A stretch of DNA of 64,000 nt from Erysipelotrichaceae bacterium (GTDB lineage Bacteria > Bacillota_I > Bacilli_A > ML615J-28 > CAG-313): the NCBI GenBank assembly GCA_015059015.1, contig SVBG01000004.1, forward strand, positions 1 to 64,000, written 5' to 3'. The notes under the pieces are model-generated. The model saw only the letters and a list, made by a program, of their open reading frames with translations. It made no database searches and had not been told where the DNA came from. Positions 262 to 49,428 of the stretch are shown here, piece by piece. Position 1 is the first letter of the stretch. Each line of letters starts with the position of its first letter. The position numbers and the translations under genes were made by a program.

Positions 262-396
262 TTACAACCAAGGTAACCAACCATTAGAACTTTCTTGAGC
301 CCCTCCATAAGTTTCAACATCACCAAAGCTAGATGTACTAATATAATCATTAAATTCAATTATTTCAATAATAGGACTTTCATATTCTTTTTTCAT
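262..396 (-). CDS. 44-aa peptide of the MKKxYExPxIEI family (copy A)
   Basis: A small gene of unknown function. The product starts MKKEYESPIIEIIEF and ends GWLPWL; the middle is rich in Ser, Gly, Asp and Glu. The start is supported by GGAG 9 nt upstream. It has its own promoter (426-454) and terminator (231-257), so it is a separate transcription unit. The N-terminal pattern MKK/N-x-YE-x-P-x-IEI/V-x-F recurs in three other tiny genes here (493-633, 45062-45187, 47405-47533), which argues against a chance ORF. There is no hydrophobic signal peptide, so if it is exported the route is not evident. It could be a RiPP-like precursor, a regulatory peptide or a chaperone-type partner; none of these is shown by the sequence. 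Confidence 0.75.
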   Translation of the reverse strand: MKKEYESPIIEIIEFNDYISTSSFGDVETYGGAQESSNGWLPWL

Positions 397-425
397 AATA
401 TTTCTCCAATCATAAACTTAATAAA

Positions 426-454
426 ATTATATCAAATAATGGATATTATTGCAA
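426..454 (-). promoter_or_regulatory. promoter of the 44-aa peptide gene
   Basis: TTGCAA (454-449), a 17-nt spacer, TATAAT (431-426). The -35 box abuts the T-tract of the preceding terminator. Confidence 0.75.
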
Positions 455-482
455 AAAAAGAGCCCATAAACATGAGCTCTTT
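453..482 (-). terminator. terminator of the 46-aa peptide gene
   Basis: Stem AAAGAGC/GCTCTTT (457-463 with 476-482) followed on the minus strand by a run of T that runs directly into the next -35 box. It ends the transcript carrying the riboswitch-controlled 660-aa gene and the 46-aa gene. Confidence 0.8.
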
Positions 483-492
483 AGTTATTTAA

Positions 493-633
493 TTAGAACC
501 AGTTATCAGCGTCACCATCTAAGATTCCAGTTTCATCACCAAAAGATACATTACTAGGATTAGCAGTCATGATATCTTCTTCATCAAATAATACAACTTC
601 AATTTCTGGTTTAGTATAATTAATGTTTTTCAT
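493..633 (-). CDS. 46-aa peptide of the MKKxYExPxIEI family (copy B)
   Basis: The product begins MKNINYTKPEIEVVLF and ends with an acidic, Gly/Asp-rich tail, DGDADNWF. A strong Shine-Dalgarno (TAGGAGGAA) precedes the ATG. It lies 23 nt downstream of the 660-aa secreted protein gene with no terminator between them, so it is probably co-transcribed and therefore also under the guanine riboswitch. Its N-terminal half aligns with the other three family members in this window. The function is unknown. Confidence 0.75.
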   Translation of the reverse strand: MKNINYTKPEIEVVLFDEEDIMTANPSNVSFGDETGILDGDADNWF

Positions 634-656: not shown

Positions 657-2639
657 TTAAATTAAATCTTGAGTGATTCTATTATATAAATCAGCAACTG
701 CAGAAATACCTTCTACTTCATAATATTCAGTTACCATAGAAGCAATAGAATAAGTTTTTGTGTTTTCAGAAACATATGTAACATCATCAATTACTACATA
801 TGCACAAACTGTAAATTCAGTTGTTAACTTATCATTATTTATTGCATCACCTAATGAAATAGTAACAAATAATTTAGAATCAGCTGAACCATAAATACCG
901 TCAGTTTCATTCCAAGCATAGTCTTTAGTTTTACCACCTGCAGTAACTCTGATACCATATTCTTGAACACCTTCAATGTCTGCAAGTGTTGCATCAACAC
1001 CACATCTAATTCTAAATTCAACATCTGAATATTCATTTGTTGTTAAATTAGACTCTCCTTCATATGAAACAGTAATAGTAACAATTCTTCTATGACCAGT
1101 TGTTCCACCAATTGTAAATACAACTTCTGTGCTTTCACCTGTCCATACACCATCTGCATATGTACCACAATCTGCAGTAATTGCATTTGTTCCTTCACCT
1201 GATGCAAATGTAAGTTCAATCTTAGTAATATTTACACTAGAACTAAAAGTAATAGTGTTACCACCATAACATCTAATTGCTTCACCAGTTGTGTAATATT
1301 TAGAAGCGTTAGAATTACTACCTTTATCAAATGTAAGTGTAACAACACCATTAGATAATTCCTCAACAGCAACACCATTTGCAACACCTAATTCACTTGC
1401 AACAATATCATAAGAACTAGGAGCAGCAACTTCTTCAACAGTATATTTATATGCCATTGTCATATAAGCATTAACACCAGTTAAAGCTTCTTTAGCATCT
1501 GCAACTGCACCCTCATCAGCAACAGCTACATAAGTAGCACCTGTTGTAAATTGTGCAGTGTTGCCAGAGTATTTTGTTAAAGTACCTTCCACAGTAATCT
1601 TATCACCAACAACTAAATCAGAACCACCAGTCATTCTATATGCTTGAATTGAATTAGCGCCATCTGTAATAGTAACAGTAATATTATCATAAGTTGAGTT
1701 ATATTCAGTTCCAATAGTTTCAACAACGCCAGTAACTGCATAAGTGAAAGCACATTCAGCAGTTCCAACCCAATCACAAATAGTTAATGCTTGTGCAATA
1801 GTTATTTCAGAACCATCAGTTGGATAAACTGTAAATTCAAATGTAGCTTCAGCACCATCAGCGCTAGCTGTAATAGTAGCAACACCCATTGATTTTGCAG
1901 TAACATTACCAGATTGATCAACAGTAGCAATATTATTATCACTTGATGACCAAACTAAACTACTAGTTAAATTTGCAGTAGTAGCTGTTAAAGTAACAAC
2001 ATCATCAACTTCAGTATAATTATCTCCATCAAGTTCAATACTAGGAGCTAAAGCATCACCAGCATTATAATCATAAATAGATACATTATCTAACCAAACA
2101 ATACCATTTGTTGTAGATGTATTCGCACAAGTGAATACCACTTTATAATATGAATTTTCTGGCCAATAATCAACATTATTTGGTTCAAATTCTAATAAAG
2201 CTGCAGATTTTGTAACTGTAACAGCTGCAGTTGAATCAACTAATGTTGCTAAAGAAGAATCTGAATAAACTTCTAATTTAACTGTAGCACTCATTCCTGA
2301 TTTTGCAACAGAACCAGCAATAATATTAACTTCTACTTTTGAACATTCACTAGCAACTACAGGTGAAGCAATATAAATTGTATTATATGATGATAAATTA
2401 GTTGATTTACCACCCATTTTAACATAAGCCCAACCACCATCGTTATTAGCGCCACCAGATACAGTCCAACCATCATAAGTCCACTTATCAGTATATGCGC
2501 TATGCTTTGCAGCTTGAGTAGTAAAATCTACAGATTCAACGACTTCAGCAGCTTTAACTTTACTTGAAATACCTAATGTAAAAATAGCGATAAAAGCGAT
2601 CATTAAAACTAATAACGATTTTTTAATTAAAGTTTTCAT
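657..2639 (-). CDS. secreted multidomain protein with Big_2-like Ig and YhcR-type OB-fold domains
   Basis: A 660-aa protein. Residues 1-30 form a clear Sec signal peptide (KK, hydrophobic stretch, AxA-like end at KVKAAE). A beta-rich jelly-roll-like region follows at about 33-190. Next comes a bacterial Ig-like group 2 domain at about 195-272, with the typical ATVDQSGNVTAKSMGVATIT pattern. An OB-fold at about 275-370 (TGVVET... TITDGANSIQAY... GDKITVEGTLTKY...) resembles that found in secreted nucleases such as YhcR. Another beta domain lies at about 400-550. The C-terminal module at about 560-655 resembles parts of the secreted proteins at 42446-45046 and 46306-47427. No nuclease catalytic domain is recognisable, so enzymatic activity should not be assumed. 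A guanine-type riboswitch with terminator lies in its leader, and a 46-aa peptide gene follows it. A plausible role is binding extracellular nucleic acid or polysaccharide under purine control; this is inference. Confidence 0.85.
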   Translation of the reverse strand: MKTLIKKSLLVLMIAFIAIFTLGISSKVKAAEVVESVDFTTQAAKHSAYTDKWTYDGWTVSGGANNDGGWAYVKMGGKSTNLSSYNTIYIASPVVASECSKVEVNIIAGSVAKSGMSATVKLEVYSDSSLATLVDSTAAVTVTKSAALLEFEPNNVDYWPENSYYKVVFTCANTSTTNGIVWLDNVSIYDYNAGDALAPSIELDGDNYTEVDDVVTLTATTANLTSSLVWSSSDNNIATVDQSGNVTAKSMGVATITASADGAEATFEFTVYPTDGSEITIAQALTICDWVGTAECAFTYAVTGVVETIGTEYNSTYDNITVTITDGANSIQAYRMTGGSDLVVGDKITVEGTLTKYSGNTAQFTTGATYVAVADEGAVADAKEALTGVNAYMTMAYKYTVEEVAAPSSYDIVASELGVANGVAVEELSNGVVTLTFDKGSNSNASKYYTTGEAIRCYGGNTITFSSSVNITKIELTFASGEGTNAITADCGTYADGVWTGESTEVVFTIGGTTGHRRIVTITVSYEGESNLTTNEYSDVEFRIRCGVDATLADIEGVQEYGIRVTAGGKTKDYAWNETDGIYGSADSKLFVTISLGDAINNDKLTTEFTVCAYVVIDDVTYVSENTKTYSIASMVTEYYEVEGISAVADLYNRITQDLI

Positions 2640-5649: not shown

Positions 5650-5907
5650 TTAATCTTTAAATGATTCAGATATTAGTTCATACATATTTGAAGCATCATC
5701 TTTTTTTATTACGGGATTAAGTGATAATACTTTTACTGAAATTTGTTTTCTACCAAATTCTATTGTGATAATATCACCAATTTTTAATTCTTTTGAAGGT
5801 TTAGCTATTTTATCATTTACTAAAATTCTTTCTGATTCCGATGCTTCTTTAGCAAGAGTACGTCTTTTAATTAATCTAGATACCTTTAAGTATTTATCTA
5901 GTCTCAT
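5650..5907 (-). CDS. rqcP: S4-domain ribosome quality-control protein RqcP (YabO)
   Basis: An 85-aa protein made almost entirely of an S4 RNA-binding domain ([19 protein letters not shown]...NDKIAKPSKELKIGDIITI). This matches RqcP/YabO, the Hsp15-related factor that acts with RqcH in adding alanine tails to nascent chains on obstructed 60S-like 50S subunits. The start codon overlaps the ftsH stop as ATGA, which implies translational coupling. The tilS-ftsH-rqcP order keeps partners found near one another in Bacilli. Confidence 0.9.
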   Translation of the reverse strand: MRLDKYLKVSRLIKRRTLAKEASESERILVNDKIAKPSKELKIGDIITIEFGRKQISVKVLSLNPVIKKDDASNMYELISESFKD

Positions 5908-7985
5908 TCGTTGTTATCCTCATCAATATTTTCTTGTGGGTTATCATTTGAAGACTCTTGTTGTTCTTTTTCTTCTTGTTCAAGACGTTCTTTTAATTCT
6001 TGTTCTTCTTTAGCCATCTTAGCTTTTTTCTTTTCCCACCAAGTAAGTTGTCCAGTCTTTAAAAGATCATCAATATCTTCTCTTGTAAGAGTTTCAACTT
6101 CAATTAAGTGTTTTGCAATAAGATCTAATAAAGCTCTATTTTCTTCTAAAATCTTCTTTCCTTGTTCATAACATTCATTAATAATCTTTCTTACTTCTTG
6201 GTCAATTTCAAGAGCAATTTGATCTGAGAAACGTTTTTCAGTCATATAGTCACGACCTAAGAATGTATGGCCACCAGAAGTTTCATATTGAACAGGACCA
6301 AGCGAACTCATACCATACTCAGTAACCATTGCACGAGCAATTCTAGTTGCATTTTGGAAGTCATTATGAGCACCTGTTGTCATTTGATTAAATACAATTT
6401 CTTCCGCAAGTCTACCTGCTAAGAATGAAATAATTTCCGCAGTTAAGAATTCTTTTGTATGAACAAATGTTTCTTCCTCAGGTGTCATTAAGTTATAACC
6501 ACCAGCATTACCACGAGGAATAATTGTTACTTTTTGAACAACTTGAGCGTGTTTAACTTTTAATCCAATTACTGCATGACCAGCTTCATGATACGCAATT
6601 AATGCCTTTTCAGTATCAGAATACTTTCTAGATTTTTTAGCAGGGCCCATCATTACTCTATCAACAGCTTCATCAATATGATAAATTTTAATTTCACGAC
6701 AGTTTTCTCTTGCAGCAAGAAGAGCTGCTTCATTAAGTAAGTTTTCAAGGTCAGCTCCACTAAATCCTGGAGTACGTCTAGCTACATCAGTAAGATTTAC
6801 CCTTGGAGATAAACGTTTATTTCTTGCGTGAACCTTTAAGATTTCTTCTCTTGCTAAAAGGTCTGGATTACTAATTGTAATTTGTCTATCAAAACGACCA
6901 GGTCTAAGAAGTGCTGGGTCTAAAATATCCACACGGTTTGTTGCAGCCATAACAATAATACCAGAGTTACCTGCAAAACCATCCATTTCAACAAGTAATT
7001 GATTTAATGTTTGTTCTCTTTCATCATGACCACCACCAAGACCGGTACCACGTTGACGACCTACCGCATCAATTTCATCAATAAAGATAATACATGGAGC
7101 ATTTTGTTTTGCTACTTTAAACATATCTCTAACACGTGATGCACCTACACCAACAAACATTTCAACAAAGTCAGAACCAGAAATTGAGTAGAATGGTACA
7201 TTAGCTTCACCTGCAACAGCTCTTGCTAAAAGCGTTTTACCAGTCCCTGGGCCACCACAAAGAAGTACACCTTTAGGGATTCTTGCACCCATATCAAAAT
7301 ACTTAGCAGGATTTTTTAAGAAATCAACAACTTCAATTAACTCTTCTTTTTCTTCTTTTAAACCTGCTACATCATTAAATGTAACATTTGTTTTCTTTGC
7401 AAGACGAGCTCTTGTTTTAGAGAACTCAAATGCTTGATTATTACTATTTGAATTATTTTTAATAATAAAGAATAAGAAAATACCAACAAGTGCAATCGGT
7501 AAAATCATTGAAATAAGCGATAACCAATTAAAATTAGAAACAACACTTGGATTGTTAATAGTAAACTCTTGCGTTGAAAGAGCTTGTCCCTTACCTTTTA
7601 GTTCAAGATAATCAGCTCTTGCTTGTTCAATCGTTTCAAACTCACTCCAAGAAATAACAGCTTTAAATGTCTTAGCTTCTTTATAATCAGCTTTAAAAGT
7701 ACCAGTAATCTCTACTAATTCATAGTTACCATCACCAGCAACACCTTTATAATTAACTTTTTCAATTAAGATAACATCTTTTAAAGCAATCGTATCTTTA
7801 ATTCCATCATTATCTATATCTTTATATTCATAAAAATGTTCATAGATTTCTTGATAAGTTAACTCTTTCACACTACTAGTACCATTAAGCGCAAATTTCA
7901 CTACCGCAAAAATAATACCAGCAATCAAAAGAAGAATAAAAATATCACCAAATCCAAAACGTTTCGTTCTTTTTTTATTAATCAT
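5904..7985 (-). CDS. ftsH: ATP-dependent zinc metalloprotease FtsH
   Basis: A 693-aa membrane AAA+ protease for quality control of membrane and some soluble proteins. TM1 lies at about 14-32 and TM2 at about 155-176, flanking an extracytoplasmic domain. The AAA module has Walker A GGPGTGKT (about 244-251), Walker B IIFIDEID (about 299-306) and the SRH arginine finger region RPGRFDR. The zinc site HEAGH is at about 466-470. The C-terminus (about 650-693) is a charged, coiled-coil-prone tail rich in Glu and Gln. AGGAGG precedes the ATG. It lies 42 nt after tilS, probably in the same operon, and its TGA overlaps the start of rqcP. Confidence 0.98.
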
Positions 7986-13507: not shown

Positions 13508-13576
13508 AAAATATTTAAAATAAAAAGAGCAATTTTAAAGTTTTTTTTAATTATATAAGTGAGAGGAGAAAGAGAT

Positions 13577-14851
13577 ATGTATCTAACAATCAAACAAAGT
13601 TACAAACCAAATAAATCCGAAAGAAAACTATTAAACTTATTATGCCATATTTCCAAAAATATTTACAACAGTTACTTATATGTTTATAGGTATGCATATT
13701 TTAATAATATAGAATATGTAGACCAACTACTAAACAAAAAACTTTATAAAAATGAAAACTTTAAATTGATTAATCAAGATACAACTAAAGGAATAAGAAA
13801 AAAAGTAATTGTTAATATGAACAACTTTAAAAATGGTTATATAAAAATCCCCAAGTACTTAGATAAACATGCAATGTTTCCTATTTTTGTAAGTACTCCA
13901 ACAATTATAACCATAAAAGACGATCTATATTTTAAAATTCCATATGCTGATTTAACTAAATCCAGTAAAATATTTCAAACAATATTTGAAGATGAACTGA
14001 TTAATTGTTTCATAAAGGAATCAGCATTAAAAGAATCATTTGAGATATTCATCAAAGTTCCAAGACACTTATATAAAAAACAAATTAGAGGAGTAACTAT
14101 CAAACCTAAATTCAATGGATTAGAATATGAAATCCTCTATAGTTACATTGATGATTTAAAACCATTAAAACTTACCAAAAGCTTCAAAAATATCATGGCA
14201 ATTGATTTAGGAATAAATAATCTCGCATCCATTATTATATCAAATAATAAAGCATTTATTATTGATGGAAAACATCTTAAATCAATTAACCAATATTATA
14301 ATAAACAAATAGCCCATTATTGCTCTATTAAACCTAATAATAAAAAACTTACTAAAAAAGAATTTCTAATACACAAAAAAAGAAATAATAGAACAAATGA
14401 TTATATCAATAAAGCTTCTAAACAAATAATTAAGATTGCATTAGAAAATGAAGTTTCAGAGATTATTATAGGTTTCAACTATAATTTCAAAACAAAATCA
14501 CTAAACTTAAAAAAAGCAAATCAACTATTCAAAGAAATTCCACTTTCAAAATTTAAAGATTTAGTTATTTCTAAAGCAAAAAAATACTCTATTAAAACTT
14601 CAACAATAAACGAATCATACACTTCACTATGTTCATTTTATGATAATGAAGACATAAAGTTTCATTATAAGTATCAAGGAACAAGAATATCAAGAGGATT
14701 ATTTAAAACGAAAAATGGAATTGTAGTTAATGCAGACATAAATGCTGCACTTAACATTTTAAAAAAAAGTAAACCCGAAAGAACTGATATACTATCATTT
14801 CTTAGGAATAGTGGCCAGGCTATGCCTTGTAGATTAAAGGTAATTCTTTAA
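13577..14851 (+). CDS. tnpB: TnpB-family RNA-guided nuclease / IS605 OrfB-like
   Basis: A 424-aa protein. The RuvC core is recognisable: AIDLGINNLASI holds the first Asp and VNADINAALNIL the last Asp. The usual RuvC-II position (IVIE-D-L in classical TnpB) reads EIIIGFNYN. A Glu in the following INESYTS motif may be the catalytic one, as in TnpB/Fanzor groups with a relocated glutamate. The four-Cys zinc finger is absent. The ATG at 13577 is chosen because AGGAG precedes it by 8 nt. No TnpA is present, so it is a lone OrfB-type element. An omega-RNA would be expected to overlap the 3' end, where a short hairpin (AGGC-TAT-GCCT near 14818-14828) is visible. Confidence 0.85.
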   Translation: MYLTIKQSYKPNKSERKLLNLLCHISKNIYNSYLYVYRYAYFNNIEYVDQLLNKKLYKNENFKLINQDTTKGIRKKVIVNMNNFKNGYIKIPKYLDKHAMFPIFVSTPTIITIKDDLYFKIPYADLTKSSKIFQTIFEDELINCFIKESALKESFEIFIKVPRHLYKKQIRGVTIKPKFNGLEYEILYSYIDDLKPLKLTKSFKNIMAIDLGINNLASIIISNNKAFIIDGKHLKSINQYYNKQIAHYCSIKPNNKKLTKKEFLIHKKRNNRTNDYINKASKQIIKIALENEVSEIIIGFNYNFKTKSLNLKKANQLFKEIPLSKFKDLVISKAKKYSIKTSTINESYTSLCSFYDNEDIKFHYKYQGTRISRGLFKTKNGIVVNADINAALNILKKSKPERTDILSFLRNSGQAMPCRLKVIL

Positions 14852-41137: not shown

Positions 41138-42445
41138 TTATTTTAATAAACCTTCTTTAACAGCATTTAATAAATCACCATCATCCATACCACAATGCCA
41201 TGCAAATACACCACCTAAATTATTAGTTTTAGCATATTCACATTTAGCAAGAACAGATGTTGCATTTTCATAAGTAACAAATGTTAATCTATCAGCACTA
41301 ATTAAATATGGAACTTTACATACATCATCATAATAATATGTATAATTAGCGTTATTTAAATAATTAGCTTTAATATCAATATAAGATAAACTTCCGGCAG
41401 AAACCCAAGATGAATTTATACTTTGTTTAGTTTGTTTAATTCCATAAAAACCAGAACCAATAATTATTTTATTAAGTGGAACATTATATTCATTATGATA
41501 AATATTAATACTTTCATCTATTGAACAACTAGAAAGTGTTGCTGCAATACCATTAGTTATGTCAGCATAATTCTTTGAACCATATAAAGCAGTATGATGA
41601 TAACCATTTGCAGTAGACATATTATATGTCATCATATTGATATAATCAAAATACTGTGCAGAATTTTCTAAATCATAATAAGGAGGAGCCCACATACCAC
41701 CACCTATAGCAGCTGTAACTAAATGATCAGGGTTATTAGCTTTAACCGCAGGATATAATTTAGACATTAATTTTGTAAATAAAGCACCATCAGATGGAGT
41801 TTCCCAGTCAATATCAACACCATCAAATCCATATGTATTGATAAGACCAACAATATTATTTACAAATTTATTAATTAATTCATCACTTTGACAGATAGTT
41901 TCAAAAGCAGTATCATAAGCTACATCAACACCACAAATAGATAATACTACCCAAGTTCCTTTTTCATGTGCTTTAGGAATAACATATTGCTTCATTTTTG
42001 GTAAGTAATATGTATAGTTATATGAATTAACACTACTTTCAGTAAATGTACCATCACTAGCAGGATATGCAAATCCGCAAGTAATAATATCATAAACTGT
42101 AAATATAGAATCACTTAGTGAAGTATAAGTAGTAGAATTACCACCAACATATGTAGCAGCAATATTATTTAACTCTTTATAACCATCAACTTCAACTTCA
42201 TATGTACATTCTTTAATAGATGAACCAGATTTAATTGTTGCAGTATAAATTACTGTTGTAGAATTATAAGGTCTATTGTAAAGGCCAGTATTAGATAACA
42301 CGCTAGAATTAGAAGATACATACGATATCGTAGTATCGTATGTATCATTCTTAGTAATTAAATCTAAATCAGATGAGACAACATCTAAATTTTCAAAATA
42401 ATTATTTAATAATAATTCTGTATTATTTAATCTGTCCTCAGCTGT
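41138..42445 (-). CDS. GH18 chitinase-like domain, in frame with the upstream secreted protein
   Basis: An atypical Ig-like domain (SSNSSVLSNTGLYNRP, KSGSSIKECTYEVEV) precedes a glycoside hydrolase family 18 barrel. The catalytic motif DxxDxDxE is intact in GFDGVDIDWE; AWHCGMDDGDL and NMMTYNMS also fit. GH18 enzymes cleave beta-1,4-GlcNAc polymers such as chitin or peptidoglycan-derived glycans. The frame is open from the base after the TGA that ends the 866-aa protein, is in the same phase, and has no signal peptide or ribosome-binding site of its own. A GTG at 42301 is a poor start, inside the Ig domain. The simplest reading is one 1300-aa secreted protein split by a nonsense codon, readthrough or a sequence error. 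Confidence 0.8.
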   Translation of the reverse strand, partial: TAEDRLNNTELLLNNYFENLDVVSSDLDLITKNDTYDTTISYVSSNSSVLSNTGLYNRPYNSTTVIYTATIKSGSSIKECTYEVEVDGYKELNNIAATYVGGNSTTYTSLSDSIFTVYDIITCGFAYPASDGTFTESSVNSYNYTYYLPKMKQYVIPKAHEKGTWVVLSICGVDVAYDTAFETICQSDELINKFVNNIVGLINTYGFDGVDIDWETPSDGALFTKLMSKLYPAVKANNPDHLVTAAIGGGMWAPPYYDLENSAQYFDYINMMTYNMSTANGYHHTALYGSKNYADITNGIAATLSSCSIDESINIYHNEYNVPLNKIIIGSGFYGIKQTKQSINSSWVSAGSLSYIDIKANYLNNANYTYYYDDVCKVPYLISADRLTFVTYENATSVLAKCEYAKTNNLGGVFAWHCGMDDGDLLNAVKEGLLK

Positions 42446-42448
42446 TCA
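42446..42448 (-). other. in-frame TGA separating secreted protein from GH18 domain
   Basis: Context ...TGG GAA GCT GAG TGA ACA GCT GAG GAC.... The six-base GCTGAG stands on both sides of TGAACA. No hairpin resembling a selenocysteine element is evident immediately after it, and other genes here stop at TGA. A mutation, readthrough or an assembly error are all open. Confidence 0.75.
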
Positions 42449-45046
42449 CTCAGCTTCCCATTGAGCAGTATAAGTTACTTCTGTAACACCAGATGCTTGA
42501 CTATAAGCAGGATATTCAGTATAAATTTGACCATCAACACTTGATTTCCAACCTAAGAATGTATAACCTTCTCTTACTGGTGTTGGAAGAGCTTCAGGAG
42601 CAACATAAGTAGCAGAATGACTTGTTGGATATGTATAAGCAGCAATTTCTTCAGGTGTGTCAAATACCATGTAACTTAAGTTTTTGTCACCTACAGCAGG
42701 AGTATTTTCAAAATAAATATATTGACCAACTGTATATTGAGTTGAAATATTTGAGCCAGAATTAGATAAAGCGTGTGTCCAAGTAACACCAGCAGCGCTA
42801 GCAGCATTATTAGCACTTGCCTTAGCAGCATCTAAACAAACAACTAGATATGCATTTAATGTTTCATCATATTGTAATAATACTTTATATTGCCATCTTA
42901 ATGAGTTTTTAGAAGTAACTGATGTATCACATAAATATGTGCCATTAGCCCCACCAACATTATCATAAGTTGTAGCAGTCTTAGAATTTGCATCATATGC
43001 CATTGAGAAATGTCCACCATTTGTATCAAATGTAGCATTTACTGTAGCATAATCAGCTTTCCAAGTTGCAGTATAAGTAACAGCATCTCCAGCAATTGCT
43101 TGTCCAGGGAATTCAGTTACAGGATTACCTTCTGAATCAATCCAACCTAAGAATGTATAATTTTCTCTAATTGGAGTTGGTAATTCACATGCTTCACTAT
43201 AGTTTGCAGTGTTAGGTAATGTAATAGCAGCAACATATGCAGCCTTAACTGCAGCACTTGAATAGTCAGCAGTCATAAAGTTACCATTTTTAGTATATTG
43301 AGCTTGACCAACCCAACCACGTAATTCATATGCAATTCTATAAATATGATTACTTTGTGCAGCATTTAATTCAGCTTGTGATGTATAGTTAAAGAAATCA
43401 GTCCATGCAGACTTATTAGCACTACTTGCAACACCTGCAATATAATTTACAAGCCATGTCCATTTTGCTTTATAATTAATATTATATAAGAATAATGAAG
43501 CATCAGAAATTTCACCCCAAGATCCTAATGCATAGAAAGTCTCAACAGTATGAGATTTACCTCTTGCAGTATTGTAATCTGCTAAGAAATCAGCAATAGC
43601 AGCATCAACACTTGGGTAAAGTCCAAGATAACCACCTGCAGTATCAAATGTAACTGTAGTAGTAGGTTTTTCAACAATCTTAGCATAGAATGTTTTAGCA
43701 CCAGTAGTACCTTTTTCAATAGCAAGAACTGGTTCACCTTCTAATTCAGCATTATCATACCATCCATTAAATTCATAACCTTCACGTTCAATAGCAGGTA
43801 ATTCGATATAATCTTCAACTGTATAAGTTGTAGCTTGATATTCAGTTTCACCTTCCATATAGATTAAATCATATTTGATTGCAGTAAATTGAGGATTTAA
43901 TACAACATTAGCATCAGTAACTGTATAAGAACCGTTATATAATTCTGTAGCTTTATAACCATCAAATGTATAACCATTCTTTGAAAGAGCAGCTAAATCT
44001 AATTCAGATTCTTTAGCAACAAAGTTTTGTTCAGCAGCATAAACTGTAGTATTGTATTCTGCTAATTTACCATAAACTGTTAAATCTTTAATCATTACAT
44101 CAATACCTGAACCAAATACGTCACCGCCAGTTGCATCAAAGAAATTTTGTAAGCTTCTTGATAAGTGGCCAAATTGTTGTAATCCATCACCATATGAATC
44201 ACTAGCAGAACCACCATTTAATAACGCATTAATTTGACGTTTAGGATGAACAAATGTGTTAGTTTCTTCTAAGAAGAATGTTAATAACCAACCCCATTTA
44301 GCACTTGTTTCTTCATCAGTAATAAAGAATTCATAAGCATTAGTACCAGAACAATCAGTATCACCATTTGCAGTCATACCAGTGCCTTCGCCATAACCAG
44401 CTTTTGCACTATTAGCCCAAGCAGTATAGCTATATGAAGTAAATTCAGTACCAAATTTAGCGTTCCAATCAGCAACGAAAGCTTTTGCTAAAACTTGTGG
44501 ATTTGTTTCATAAGTAGCATTATTAACAAATACGATATCATTTAAAGTAAATGTATTCATATAATTTTCAGAAACATAGTCTACAATACTTTCTACAAAT
44601 TCACCATCAACACTATTTTTAGCATAAACTGCAACTTCAGCAAGATTTCTTACAACAACGTTTGAATATGTGTAAACACCATCAACTAAAACATATGCAA
44701 CAGCAGAAATATCTTGTGCATAAGCAGCTGCAGGGAAATTAACCATTGTAGCAGACATAAAAGGTTCTTCAGCAGTAATACCTTCAACAACAGGAGCAAC
44801 ATGAGCGCCATCTGTTTCAACAGTAACTTCAGCTAAATCACCTTGTGCAAAAACGAAACCATATTCATTACCTTCAACGTAGTTTTCAATATTTGCAACC
44901 CATTTTAAACCATTATTTCCATCAGTTCTAATTTGTACGCCATCTTCTAACGAAACTGTAGTAGCAGTTTCATCAGCTTTAACAAGCACCACACTTAATG
45001 ATAGAACCATGAAAACAGTTAATAAACTTAAAACTATTTTTTTCAT
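42446..45046 (-). CDS. secreted repeat protein with InlB-type B repeats
   Basis: An 866-aa protein. A signal peptide (1-24, ending LVKADE) precedes a module at about 30-140 (DGVQIRTDGNNGLKWVANIE, EYGFVFAQGD, AVAYVLVDGVYTYSNVVVR) similar to modules in the secreted proteins at 46306 and 657. Two copies of another domain follow (about 160-300 and 480-610; each has a FVADWN/FLADYN and a WGWLLTFF/WTWLVNYI motif). At least three Listeria-Bacteroides (InlB B) repeats of the GYTFLGW...YTAQWE kind are interspersed. It ends at an in-frame TGA, after which the frame continues into Ig and GH18 domains. Probably a cell-surface or secreted glycan-binding protein. A 41-aa peptide gene ends 15 nt upstream. 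Confidence 0.85.
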   Translation of the reverse strand: MKKIVLSLLTVFMVLSLSVVLVKADETATTVSLEDGVQIRTDGNNGLKWVANIENYVEGNEYGFVFAQGDLAEVTVETDGAHVAPVVEGITAEEPFMSATMVNFPAAAYAQDISAVAYVLVDGVYTYSNVVVRNLAEVAVYAKNSVDGEFVESIVDYVSENYMNTFTLNDIVFVNNATYETNPQVLAKAFVADWNAKFGTEFTSYSYTAWANSAKAGYGEGTGMTANGDTDCSGTNAYEFFITDEETSAKWGWLLTFFLEETNTFVHPKRQINALLNGGSASDSYGDGLQQFGHLSRSLQNFFDATGGDVFGSGIDVMIKDLTVYGKLAEYNTTVYAAEQNFVAKESELDLAALSKNGYTFDGYKATELYNGSYTVTDANVVLNPQFTAIKYDLIYMEGETEYQATTYTVEDYIELPAIEREGYEFNGWYDNAELEGEPVLAIEKGTTGAKTFYAKIVEKPTTTVTFDTAGGYLGLYPSVDAAIADFLADYNTARGKSHTVETFYALGSWGEISDASLFLYNINYKAKWTWLVNYIAGVASSANKSAWTDFFNYTSQAELNAAQSNHIYRIAYELRGWVGQAQYTKNGNFMTADYSSAAVKAAYVAAITLPNTANYSEACELPTPIRENYTFLGWIDSEGNPVTEFPGQAIAGDAVTYTATWKADYATVNATFDTNGGHFSMAYDANSKTATTYDNVGGANGTYLCDTSVTSKNSLRWQYKVLLQYDETLNAYLVVCLDAAKASANNAASAAGVTWTHALSNSGSNISTQYTVGQYIYFENTPAVGDKNLSYMVFDTPEEIAAYTYPTSHSATYVAPEALPTPVREGYTFLGWKSSVDGQIYTEYPAYSQASGVTEVTYTAQWEAE

Positions 45047-45061
45047 AATTTTAGTTTCCTC

Positions 45062-45187
45062 CTATGCGAAGTAATCTTCTTCACCTTCTGCCCATGGGAA
45101 TTCGATTACAACGCTTCCACCAGCAGTAAGTACTTCAGATTCATAGTTAATAATTTCGATAGAAGGAGTTTCATAATTTTTCATCAT
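45062..45187 (-). CDS. 41-aa peptide of the MKKxYExPxIEI family (copy C)
   Basis: The product begins MMKNYETPSIEIINYESEVL and continues ...SVVIEFPWAEGEEDYFA. The VIE(F/Y)PW block is shared with copy D (47405-47533). GGAG lies about 10 nt before the first ATG, and a second ATG follows at once. The stop codon TAG runs into GGAGGAAAC, the ribosome-binding site of the 866-aa secreted protein, which starts 15 nt later. So the peptide and the secreted protein are co-translated from one transcript. Function unknown. Confidence 0.8.
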   Translation of the reverse strand: MMKNYETPSIEIINYESEVLTAGGSVVIEFPWAEGEEDYFA

Positions 45188-46305: not shown

Positions 46306-47427
46306 TTATGAATTATTTGTTAAATATGTTTCTTTAACTTCATTATATGAAGCGTTATATATATCACTATAATAATATTCATATTCTAAATTCTCATTAA
46401 TAAACTTTAAAAATGCTACTGCATATATATCTTTATCTTGGAATGATATAGGAATATTATTCATTGTTACCGCAAAACTATCTTCTTTTTGTGCTTCTTG
46501 TATAAAAACATTAGGTGTATTAATATCTAATACATTTGTTTTTTTGTTTAAAAAAACAAATCCTAAAATATAATTGTTTTTGTTTGGTAGGATTGTTGAT
46601 GTTTTAAATCTAATACCATCATATTCTGCACTATATGAAATATCCATATTATTAATAATTTCATTATAATATAAATCTAACAAATTAATCGATATTGTTT
46701 CAGTATAATAAACATTATTTGTATCGTGTTCTTTTACATATAAACATGCTTTAAATGTTACATCTAAATGATAAATTGGAATATCCTTAATATTTACTCT
46801 AAATTCATTATTTTCATTTAACACTTCTAATTTTGTTATTTCAGTCTCAATTTGGTCATTTTCTGCATTTTCTAAATTAAGTTTAGTAAATAATTTGTTT
46901 TTTGAAAATATTAATCCATATTCAGCGTTATTGTTAATAAATGTAGCAGCTTTAAAAGATAATAAACCATTATCATATGACACATCTTTTATAATTATTT
47001 CACTAAGTCCAGCAAGTTCAGCATATATATATTTTACTTTATTACTATAAATAACTTCATTTTCTGTTACTACAAAACTTCTAACATACATATTATAATA
47101 ATTATATTCTTCAGGAACACTGAGTGTTATTAAACTTGTTTTCTTTAAATTTCCTTTTATTTCATATTTAACTAAAGTTTCATCTTTCAAAGATACATCA
47201 CAATCTACATTTGATATAATAATCCCATATTTTAAAGTATTGGTATTTAGATAATTGTCTATTTTAAATGTCACAGTATTATTTGTAACGTTTGTAGTAA
47301 CATCTGTTATTTCAATATATGGATTAGTTGTAGCAGAAATTGATACATTTAATAATATAATACTTATAAAAAATAATATAAATACTACTATTTTTTTTAT
47401 ATACTTATTCTTCAAAAAAAACATCAT
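46306..47427 (-). CDS. exported protein with module shared by other secreted proteins
   Basis: A 373-aa protein with an N-terminal membrane/signal segment (MMFFLKNKYIKKIVVFILFF, hydrophobic to about 28, ending SISA). Three consecutive modules of about 105 residues follow, with recurring marks such as KYGIIIS / EYGLIFS / ILGFVFL and, between them, YNEIINNMDISYSAEYDGIRFKTS. The same marks occur in the secreted proteins at 657-2639 and 42446-45046. The start at 47427 is supported by GGGGGAG 5-6 nt upstream, which lies inside the coding end of peptide D; the two genes overlap by 23 nt. No catalytic domain is visible. Confidence 0.75.
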   Translation of the reverse strand: MMFFLKNKYIKKIVVFILFFISIILLNVSISATTNPYIEITDVTTNVTNNTVTFKIDNYLNTNTLKYGIIISNVDCDVSLKDETLVKYEIKGNLKKTSLITLSVPEEYNYYNMYVRSFVVTENEVIYSNKVKYIYAELAGLSEIIIKDVSYDNGLLSFKAATFINNNAEYGLIFSKNKLFTKLNLENAENDQIETEITKLEVLNENNEFRVNIKDIPIYHLDVTFKACLYVKEHDTNNVYYTETISINLLDLYYNEIINNMDISYSAEYDGIRFKTSTILPNKNNYILGFVFLNKKTNVLDINTPNVFIQEAQKEDSFAVTMNNIPISFQDKDIYAVAFLKFINENLEYEYYYSDIYNASYNEVKETYLTNNS

Positions 47428-47533
47428 AATCACTCCCCCACGGATATTCAATTACAATACTAGAATCTAACATTTTAATTTGATCTTTAAAATTAACAAT
47501 TTCAAATTTTGGTAATTCATACTCTTTTTTCAT
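47405..47533 (-). CDS. 42-aa peptide of the MKKxYExPxIEI family (copy D)
   Basis: The product begins MKKEYELPKFEIVNF and contains SSIVIEYPW near the end. It is preceded by AAGGGGGAT and a promoter at 47562-47593. A longer frame upstream covers the promoter itself and so is not coding. The last 23 bases overlap the start of the secreted-protein gene, and the peptide's PWGSD codons contain that gene's Shine-Dalgarno, so translation of the two is coupled. Function unknown. Confidence 0.78.
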   Translation of the reverse strand: MKKEYELPKFEIVNFKDQIKMLDSSIVIEYPWGSDYDVFFEE

Positions 47534-47687: not shown

Positions 47688-48254
47688 TTATTTAAACTCA
47701 TCAATTAAATCTAAAATCGTTGAACTAGGAACAATATTACCATCTGTAGAAACATTATTAATATAAAGTTCAAAAGTTTCTTTACTAATTTGAAAAACTA
47801 TTTCGTTATATTGTTTAATAGTACCTTCGTATTTTTTTATACCAAAATATTTTTCAATCAATGGAGCATATTGCTCTTTTGTTAAAAAATTAGTTGGATG
47901 CCTATTTATTTTATTGATAATAAATAAATATTCTATAATTGGATTTACAAAAAATATTTTTCCTTTATAAGATATTCCTTCTTGTTTTAATTCATTAATA
48001 AGTTTGTTAATAGATCTTTTGTAATTACCATCTATATCAAAAAATATATAGTATTTATTTTCTGAATTTACTTTTAAAACCTTTTTTAATTGATCTACAA
48101 TTAAATTTACAGAATTACTAGGGAAAATTTTAATATCATATTTATCGTTATAAAAGTTTAACACTTTATTAAGATAAATTTTATCGCCTTCCCCTTCACA
48201 AATTACAAACACTTTTTCTTTAATTTTAGGAAGGCTAGGTTTTCTATTTATCAA
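47688..48254 (-). CDS. RloB-like TOPRIM protein of an abortive-infection-type pair
   Basis: A 188-aa protein. The start of the RloB/AbiLii-like TOPRIM fold is seen in VFVICEGEGDKIYLNKVL (about 15-32), with the acidic FFDIDGNYK (about 72-80) as the second metal-binding segment, and PIIEYLF. It begins at a TTG that overlaps the ATPase stop codon (TTGA), so the two are translationally coupled. By analogy with AbiL and RloAB pairs it may be the effector of an anti-phage system. The assignment rests on motifs and gene pairing. Confidence 0.75.
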   Translation of the reverse strand: MINRKPSLPKIKEKVFVICEGEGDKIYLNKVLNFYNDKYDIKIFPSNSVNLIVDQLKKVLKVNSENKYYIFFDIDGNYKRSINKLINELKQEGISYKGKIFFVNPIIEYLFIINKINRHPTNFLTKEQYAPLIEKYFGIKKYEGTIKQYNEIVFQISKETFELYINNVSTDGNIVPSSTILDLIDEFK

Positions 48255-49408
48255 TCGTCAAACCACTTTGGTTCAGGTAATGCCCCAAACAACCCTTTTA
48301 AATATTTAATCATAACATTTCCCCTTGTATCATTTTCAGAATTTTCTTTAAAATCACTTAAGCTATATAAATAATTTCCTTCATTATCCTTATGTATAAA
48401 CCAAATTTGGTCTTTTCTTAATAAATATTTATCATCTAATAATAACAAATCATGTGACGTTGCTATAAGCTGAGAATTTGTATTATCATGAGAATTATAA
48501 TATGCGATTAAAGCTTTTGTAACTAATGTATGTAAACTAGACTCTATTTCATCTATAATTAATATCTTATTATTTTTTATCGCGTTTAAAAAGGTATAAA
48601 TAAATTTAGTTGTTTTTTTAGTGCCGGTAGAATCGATTATTCCGAAAGGTATTTCTTCAGAAAAATTTTTAAAATTATATTTAACAAATAATCTTAATTT
48701 TTCTAAAATTTCTTCATCTATTTTTTGTTCTTTTTTAATTTCATTCACTATATCTGTAGCATCAATCAATGTATCAATACTAAAATCAAAATTTTTAATT
48801 AACGAATTAATTTCATTAAAACTATTATTATCTAATATTTCTGAAACATCAAAATTCGTAGAATTATTTAAAAATTCAAATTTATTTAGAAAATTTAAGA
48901 ATGTTTCAACAGATTTTTTATGTTTTTGTGATAATCTAAATAAATATAATTTCTCATTATTTTCCCCGATAAGTTCTAAAATTTTAGTTAACTCTCTATC
49001 TGGTTTTTCTCTGTTTAATAAAACCTCATTATTTTTAATAAAAATTTCTTGTTTAATTCTTTCTTTACTAAACGTTATTTCATATGAGTATATATCATCG
49101 CCATCAGAAAAATCTATTTTAAATTCTAAATCATCTTTTCTGTTATAAAATATATTTTTGTCATATTTTTCTAATATAATTTGTTCACTTTTTATTAAAT
49201 TTATAAAAAAATGAAGCGACTCCAAAAAACATGTTTTACCAGTGTTGTTAGCACCATATATAAAAGCACTTTTAACTAAATCAAATTTATTTGCTACGTT
49301 CTTAATTAAATTTTCTCTATTTTTTTTAATGTAGTTATCAGCAATCATAGAAAATTCAACTTTATCATAAAAGACTTTATATCCTTTTACTGAATAATTT
49401 AATAACAT
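48251..49408 (-). CDS. RloA/AbiLi-like AAA family ATPase
   Basis: A 385-aa OLD/RecF-like ATPase. Walker A is YGANNTGKTCFL (about 54-65), Walker B KILIIDEIESSLH (about 285-297), followed by the ATSHDLLLLD motif typical of AAA_15/AAA_21 ATPases. The ATG at 49408 is used because GAGGT precedes it and the promoter -10 lies just upstream; earlier in-frame starts are not credible. It is coupled to the RloB-like gene. Such pairs act in phage defence; specificity is unknown. Confidence 0.85.
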   Translation of the reverse strand: MLLNYSVKGYKVFYDKVEFSMIADNYIKKNRENLIKNVANKFDLVKSAFIYGANNTGKTCFLESLHFFINLIKSEQIILEKYDKNIFYNRKDDLEFKIDFSDGDDIYSYEITFSKERIKQEIFIKNNEVLLNREKPDRELTKILELIGENNEKLYLFRLSQKHKKSVETFLNFLNKFEFLNNSTNFDVSEILDNNSFNEINSLIKNFDFSIDTLIDATDIVNEIKKEQKIDEEILEKLRLFVKYNFKNFSEEIPFGIIDSTGTKKTTKFIYTFLNAIKNNKILIIDEIESSLHTLVTKALIAYYNSHDNTNSQLIATSHDLLLLDDKYLLRKDQIWFIHKDNEGNYLYSLSDFKENSENDTRGNVMIKYLKGLFGALPEPKWFDD

Positions 49409-49428
49409 ATTTTGTACCTCACACATAT

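Follow-up and report, generated by a model that had tools for sequence, protein, structure and literature searches.

The closest described systems are the linear polyphosphorylated peptides (LPPs), reported by Popov et al. (Nat Commun, May 2026) for the lppAKBSDN cluster of Paenibacillus alginolyticus DSM5050 (PMC13381572). LppA is the precursor, LppB is the RRE, LppK is an HprK kinase, LppS is a SipW-like leader peptidase, LppD is an MsbA-like exporter, and LppN is an NTP transferase (PMC13381572). The precursor is cut after T-1, S3 of the core is phosphorylated, and clusters contain 1-3 precursors (PMC13381572). In the LppB-LppA crystal structure, D70 fixes the Tyr and N33 fixes the Pro kink of the leader (PMC13381572). 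LPP clusters are often found in capsule loci, and their role is unknown (PMC13381572). Secreted proteins and Clostridia are not mentioned in the main text of that paper.

Two other systems share components with the genes described here. Paeninodin-type lasso peptides have the same RRE family, an HprK-like kinase, an NTP transferase, an ABC exporter, and a [Y/W]xxP leader. The SynChlorMet cassette is composed of ScmC (kinase-like), ScmD (PqqD-like), and the radical SAM proteins ScmE/F.

The window is the whole stretch of DNA that was analysed, 64,000 nucleotides of one contig from an Erysipelotrichaceae bacterium. Four short ORFs were named in an earlier note, which gave no strand; all are present and all lie on the minus strand. 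As that note proposed, they adjoin secreted-protein genes, three in number and each with a signal peptide (657-2639, 42446-45046, and 46306-47451). The features are as follows.

near 236-256: terminator-like hairpin between peptide 1, the last gene, and the contig end
262..396, minus strand: peptide 1, 44 aa, MKKEYESPIIEIIEFNDYISTSSFGDVETYGGAQESSNGWLPWL, with a YxxPxI leader (profile E 6.7e-21)
493..633, minus strand: peptide 2, 46 aa, MKNINYTKPEIEVVLFDEEDIMTANPSNVSFGDETGILDGDADNWF, with an AGGAGG ribosome-binding site
565..633, minus strand: predicted leader of peptide 2, M1 to T23, inferred from the family consensus and LppA analogy (PMC13381572)
496-564, minus strand: predicted core of peptide 2, inferred from an LppA-like cut after Thr
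657..2639, minus strand: partner of peptides 2 and 1, 660 aa, with a signal peptide, Big_2, and a C-terminal IRF-type domain
42446..45046, minus strand: partner of peptide 3, 866 aa, with a signal peptide, an N-terminal IRF-type domain, and InlB B-repeats
45062..45187, minus strand: peptide 3, 41 aa, MMKNYETPSIEIINYESEVLTAGGSVVIEFPWAEGEEDYFA, a group A member with four paralogues elsewhere in the genome
46306..47451, minus strand: partner of peptide 4, up to 381 aa, with a signal peptide and repeated IRF-type domains
47405..47533, minus strand: peptide 4, 42 aa, MKKEYELPKFEIVNFKDQIKMLDSSIVIEYPWGSDYDVFFEE, without T-x-S and with a syntenic orthologue in another genome (G003)

Peptides 2 and 1 follow the secreted-protein gene at 657..2639, which runs in the same direction. 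The stop of peptide 3 is 15 nt from the start of its partner, and the partner of peptide 4 overlaps the end of the peptide gene. Peptide 2 is the window copy nearest to the family consensus, with Thr 14 residues after the Pro. A good ribosome-binding site had been claimed for each gene. The Shine-Dalgarno sequence is strong at 493-633 (AGGAGG) and 47405-47533 (AAGGGGG) and moderate (GGAG) at 262-396 and 45062-45187.

Other genes were observed nearby. An AAA_21 ATPase with a small partner gene, resembling an RloAB/Abi-type defence pair, directly adjoins a peptide gene at two sites in the genome, and the window also encodes an IS605 OrfB/TnpB-type protein.

47688-49426 of the window, minus strand: AAA_21 ATPase and small gene beside a peptide gene
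5819-7698 of locus L024: AAA_21 ATPase and small gene beside a peptide gene
13559-14851 of the window, plus strand: IS605 OrfB/TnpB-type protein (PF01385 6.4e-21, Cas12f1-like TNB 6.1e-9)

The four genes share an N-terminal pattern, as first noticed, and belong to a larger family. A profile built from the four sequences finds 15 copies in the window genome (G000; 2.01 Mb, 14 contigs). Eight score E<=2e-18, comprising the seeds themselves and another four at 4e-20 to 2e-19; the other seven lie between 5e-7 and 1.3e-5. A larger profile brings every copy to E<=1e-10; copy counts throughout are profile-search counts. The copies sort into group A (MNKNYETPSIEIINYESEVLTAGGSVVIDFPWAEGDEDYFA, n=5), group B (MKKEFETPTIEIINFDENINLGPNDEWYDSNVDMGGWI, n=6), and singletons. 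Pfam and NCBIfam give nothing above noise for the peptides, and none of the 30 precursors scanned has a matching model.

The earlier note had made the family depend on purifying selection and on homologues outside this genome, and both were found. Pooled group A paralogues (n=5) have a pS of 0.23 and a pN of 0.06 (pN/pS 0.26), and group B paralogues (n=6) have a pS of 0.34 and a pN of 0.05 (pN/pS 0.15). The most telling group B pair has a pS of 0.68 against a pN of 0.054. The single orthologue pair of peptide 4 (with G003) gives a ratio of 0.65 from few sites. The paralogues differ mostly at synonymous sites, and the peptide genes are therefore inferred to be translated and selected, in the absence of ribosome or expression data. 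Chance ORFs were considered and are ruled out by the profile E-values together with pN/pS.

Homologues are present in all four of the other genomes of the genus and in seven further genomes of the order, other genera included. Many Clostridia also carry them: 26 of 117 genomes sampled from one order encode peptides. A genome has 1-17 precursors, and several hold many, with 17, 12, 10, 8, and 8.

Within the window genome, five units of a group B peptide and a secreted protein are located far apart on contigs C3, C4, and C7 (L024, L026-L029). The peptide is identical in four of the five, and some share upstream sequence. The group B unit appears to have undergone recent dispersal or gene conversion across the genome.

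The family leader is MKKxYxxPEIEIxxFxxEDIITxS. Anchored on the Pro, 81 distinct sequences have Y in 94%, P in 99%, E+3 in 78%, I+4 in 73%, F+7 in 68%, E+10 in 56%, D+11 in 64%, I/V+12, I/L+13, T+14 in 56%, and S+16 in 71%. A canonical precursor is MKKNYNAPDFEVAEFEVEDIITLSVGTGPVEGGDDGWQDI from locus L115. The E-D-I-I-T-x-S stretch, whose Thr lies at +14 from the conserved Pro, is a cleavage-site-like motif and resembles the ETxxS cut and phosphorylation region of the published LPP precursor. That no cleavage motif was visible is correct for the four window copies, because they are atypical at this stretch; it does not hold once more members are aligned. T-x-S is missing in several paralogues of the window genome, in particular group B (FDENINLGPNDEW) and peptide 4, so phosphorylation and the cut may differ in these copies; degeneration or another route of handling is possible.

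Tail sequence varies freely within a constrained composition. Across the 81 sequences D+E make up 19% and K+R 2.6%, and Cys occurs in three. The acidic C-terminal halves with aromatic ends seen in the window extend to the whole family, whose mean net charge is -3.7: 75 of 81 members are negative, and 59 of 81 have F, W, or Y among the last four residues. Leaders were the basis of the profile; the composition of the tail is therefore independent of how members were found.

A single cassette of three genes is found in the window genome. It is located on contig C3, beside a group B secreted partner gene.

L024 13484-14182: HprK-like kinase (NCBIfam ScmC 2.9e-9 and HprK-related kinase A 2.5e-4, both below cut-off)
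L024 14193-14636: S26/S24 peptidase-like protein, soluble and SipW/S26-like (signal peptidase models, below cut-offs)
L024 14611-14886: PqqD-type RRE (Pfam PqqD, E 3.5e-18)

The earlier note saw no modifying enzyme because the cassette lies outside the window, on another contig of the same genome.

Among NCBIfam models, lasso PqqD is nearest to the RRE (2.7e-11, below its cut-off); among solved relatives, TbiB1 is the best. The RRE aligns with LppB (PDB 9x8z, 9x8z_B). The Asn and Asp equivalent to N33 and D70 of LppB are invariant in 17 RRE homologues, and the Phe equivalent to F74 is nearly so. The paeninodin lasso RRE (9x90) lacks the Pro-kink-fixing Asn and the Tyr-fixing Asp that the present RRE has. 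Going by these two residues, the RRE would fit Tyr-type leaders.

The best models of the S26-like protein are archaeal signal peptidase I and SipW, and there is no N-terminal transmembrane helix in its sequence. Its Ser, His, and Asp (S28/H66/D81), which match S29/H68/D93 of LppS, are invariant in 19 homologues. The structure model (pLDDT 93) has signal peptidases and LexA as its nearest structures, at only E 2e-3. In the HprK-like protein the P-loop GxGK is invariant in 21 sequences. An HprK profile against PDB sequences matched the P-loop only, and a fold comparison was therefore needed. In Foldseek, the structure model (pLDDT 94) finds HprK/P (1kkl, 2qmh, 1jb1) and the fold relative PEPCK.

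The same gene set, or most of it, is close to peptides in five other genomes (G004, G014, G019, G026, and G035). All three core genes are present in 37 of the 58 named loci retrieved with the S26-like protein. Apart from these, just one neighbour recurs strongly, an MsbA-like ABC exporter, which lies within 6 kb of the S26 gene in 15 of 58 loci and directly adjoining it in G005. In the window genome the cassette has no LppD-like exporter beside it. An NTP transferase (PF14907) adjoins or lies within the cassette in G001, G002, G014, G019, G026, G035, G036, and several Clostridia. The window genome has one as well (1.3e-45), but on a separate contig from the cassette. Clostridia operons recur (L104, L110, L093, L091, and L115) in the order secreted protein, peptide, HprK, with PqqD, S26, ABC, and NTase close by.

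Further arrangements were observed. The strong NTP_transf_5 gene of the window genome (C11:32408-33574; L165 7409-8575) is inside a UDP-sugar/polysaccharide locus with genes that appear, by eye, WecB- and FnlA-like, a setting that recalls the capsule loci of LPP clusters. A second cassette type in G026 (L167 12826-13845) and G019 (L169 7172-8179) contains PqqD and a second HprK/S26 pair, with a radical SAM gene (Pfam 1.8e-23) separating them. These radical SAM cassettes adjoin Cys-containing peptide variants (YQKPVIQVVKFTLEEGIAES...C) and a large secreted gene.

Peptides and cassette occur together. Among 43 genomes of the order, 10 have both, 2 have the peptide only, 1 has the cassette only, and 30 have neither (p 4e-7); counted by genus, the corresponding figures are 6, 1, 1, and 14 (p 6e-4). 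Among 117 Clostridia genomes, they are 23, 3, 12, and 79 (p=1e-12). The tests assume independence between genomes, which does not hold, a weakness partly offset by the genus-level count and by the repeat of the result in a second class. Recognisable peptides are present in 21 of 24 cassette-bearing genomes. Peptides without a cassette match are limited to 2 of 43 and 3 of 117 genomes, one of them (G003) with a contig that ends where the syntenic G004 has its cassette.

The peptides are also tied to secreted proteins. A signal-peptide-like neighbour on the same strand within 300 nt was found for 38 of 45 peptides in a first set, against 13% of other genes (p 1e-16). For a further 39 peptides, dispersed copies from Clostridia, the count is 30 against 19% (p 5e-8). 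Contig ends, and signal peptides that the simple test did not detect, account for many of the misses. Partner types include adhesin-like repeats, InlB repeats, BspA LRR, Big_2, pectate lyase, endonuclease I, cohesin-like, and beta-helix proteins. All three window partners, and 21 of 67 partners overall, contain an unnamed IRF-type domain, against 6 of 488 other ORFs. A set of 10 Clostridia partners has in common a C-terminal domain that none of these 488 contains. One domain common to all partners was sought and not found, and the remaining partners have no detectable shared domain. By simple patterns, a C-terminal transmembrane segment occurs in 1 of 72 partner assignments and an LPXTG anchor in 0 of 72, with a few partners counted twice.

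One partner gene was set apart as a readthrough candidate. The partner at 42446-45046 (minus strand) ends in an in-frame TGA at 42446-42448, after which the same frame runs 435 codons into a GH18 domain (41138-42448) that has no signal peptide of its own. A junction of TGA-ACN followed by T[AST]xDR[ILV]N recurs at the equivalent position in secreted-protein genes from five further genomes of two families (L032, L167, L169, L176, and L178). TGA is an ordinary stop in the window genome (11 of 125 ORFs). No strong RNA structure was found 3' of the in-frame UGA in partner genes. Programmed stop-codon readthrough is a candidate explanation of the junction.

The near-obligatory pairing with secreted proteins could also be expected of small cytoplasmic accessory proteins, chaperone- or immunity-like, that are never modified and whose link to the RRE cassette reflects only lineage or a shared habitat. 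The degenerate T-x-S of window paralogues and the lack of an exporter adjoining the cassette in the window genome also favour this explanation. It is nevertheless unlikely, as the leader fits RRE-binding rules and the RRE keeps its Tyr- and Pro-fixing residues, several Clostridia have peptide and kinase genes in one operon, and the co-occurrence of peptides and cassette is replicated in two classes.

Gene order bears on a second alternative, in which the peptides are regulatory leader peptides (uORFs) that couple to or attenuate the secreted-protein gene and have no activity as products. In Bacilli the peptide mostly precedes the secreted gene, and many copies are 0-20 nt upstream of its start or overlap it, as a uORF would. 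In Clostridia, and for peptides 1 and 2 of the window, the peptide gene follows the secreted gene; the peptide is downstream of its partner in 44 of 72 assignments, and regulation of this kind is rejected as the main reading for that reason. Purifying selection acts on the amino acids, the tail included, and the genes co-occur with a cassette for binding and cleaving peptides, which leaves the uORF explanation with little room. Lasso precursors, with a core tied by a macrolactam cyclase behind the YxxP leader, RRE, HprK-like kinase, and NTP transferase, are the least tenable possibility: the YxxPx[I/L] leader is the lasso RRE motif, the RRE scores best with the lasso PqqD chaperone and TbiB1, and some group A cores place Asp or Glu at position 7 after Gly, but cyclase and B2 peptidase are missing, with PF13471 (Transglut_core3) absent from the genome and all peptide-bearing relatives, no match over cut-off to Asn_synthase (PF00733) in the genome, and no such enzyme recurring beside the 58 cassettes.

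The peptides are thus best regarded, with good though incomplete confidence, as precursors of ribosomally made, post-translationally modified LPP-type peptides, dispersed over the genome and apparently served by one cassette, with the chemistry inferred. The earlier reading of a conserved leader and variable tail as a modified or exported peptide gains support from the cassette in the genome and the cleavage-site-like motif in the alignment. The family, its selection, the co-occurrence, the physical linkage, the secreted-neighbour rule, and the conserved catalytic and binding residues are computed.

The system shares with LPPs a discrete RRE, a soluble SipW/SpI-like leader peptidase with Ser/His/Asp, and an HprK-like kinase. 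In part of the genomes these are accompanied by an NTP_transf_5 protein and, in Clostridia and G005, by an MsbA-like exporter, the counterpart of LppD. A YxxP leader, a Thr near the cut, a Ser just after it, a variable core, and the absence of a cyclase are also common to both. The LPP leader is YxxPxVLxHQxIxFETxxS, whereas the present consensus is YxxPEIEIxxFxxEDIITxS; the middle and the spacing differ, with Thr 14 rather than 12 residues after the Pro and TxS rather than TxxS. LPP clusters hold 1-3 precursors, whereas a genome here has 1-17, most of them distant from the enzymes, and every precursor is paired with a gene for a secreted protein. The present family is found in uncultured gut Bacilli and Clostridia, and its NTase is detached in the window genome.

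An RRE with Tyr- and Pro-fixing residues, a SipW/SpI-like peptidase, and an HprK-like kinase meet the LPP criteria. The published precursor motif is not matched, so strict membership fails, and the set is incomplete where the NTase and exporter are away from the cassette, as in the window genome. On sequence grounds the system would work like an LPP system, and it is classed here as divergent LPP-type rather than as a strict LPP. It differs from paeninodin-type lasso systems in that macrolactam cyclase and B2 transglutaminase-like peptidase were not found, the leader has Tyr and not Trp, and the RRE keeps Asn and Asp. The SynChlorMet cassette resembles it in the kinase, whose best NCBIfam model is ScmC, and in the PqqD-like protein, which also matches ScmD. 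It differs in that the window genome cassette has no radical SAM protein, which is present only in the second cassette type of G019 and G026.

In the proposed mechanism, the small PqqD-type RRE protein would bind the N-terminal Y-x-x-P-x-I leader. The HprK-like kinase would phosphorylate the serine just past the leader, and the soluble SipW/S26-like serine peptidase, recruited by the RRE, would cut near E-D-I-I-T | x-S. The NTP transferase may finish the acidic core, with export by the MsbA-like ABC exporter in other genomes. A single cassette appears to serve, in trans, many precursors scattered round the genome. Each of them has a distinct large secreted protein encoded alongside, from which the mature peptide is inferred to act with or on that partner. 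Each biochemical step (phosphorylation, cut, binding, and export) and the function of the partner are inferred by homology, without expression or mass data.

Apparently new here are the divergent leader, the dispersed precursors that seem to be processed in trans, and the pairing of each with a different secreted protein. The family suggests a larger LPP reservoir in gut Bacilli and Clostridia. Many copies are far from the enzymes, which breaks the gene-cluster assumption used to find LPP-type peptides. Each precursor is tied to a specific secreted protein, so its role can be tested directly. One cultured species, Ruminococcus bromii, is open to such tests: ATCC 27255 and 5AMG both encode PqqD, the S26-like protein, and a single peptide. 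It is possible, though doubtful at present, that the modified acidic phosphopeptides are dedicated accessories of the co-encoded secreted proteins, such as surface tethers or maturation factors, made by one machine for the whole genome. If this is true, it would give LPPs a biological role and gut Bacillota a new route for handling extracellular proteins.
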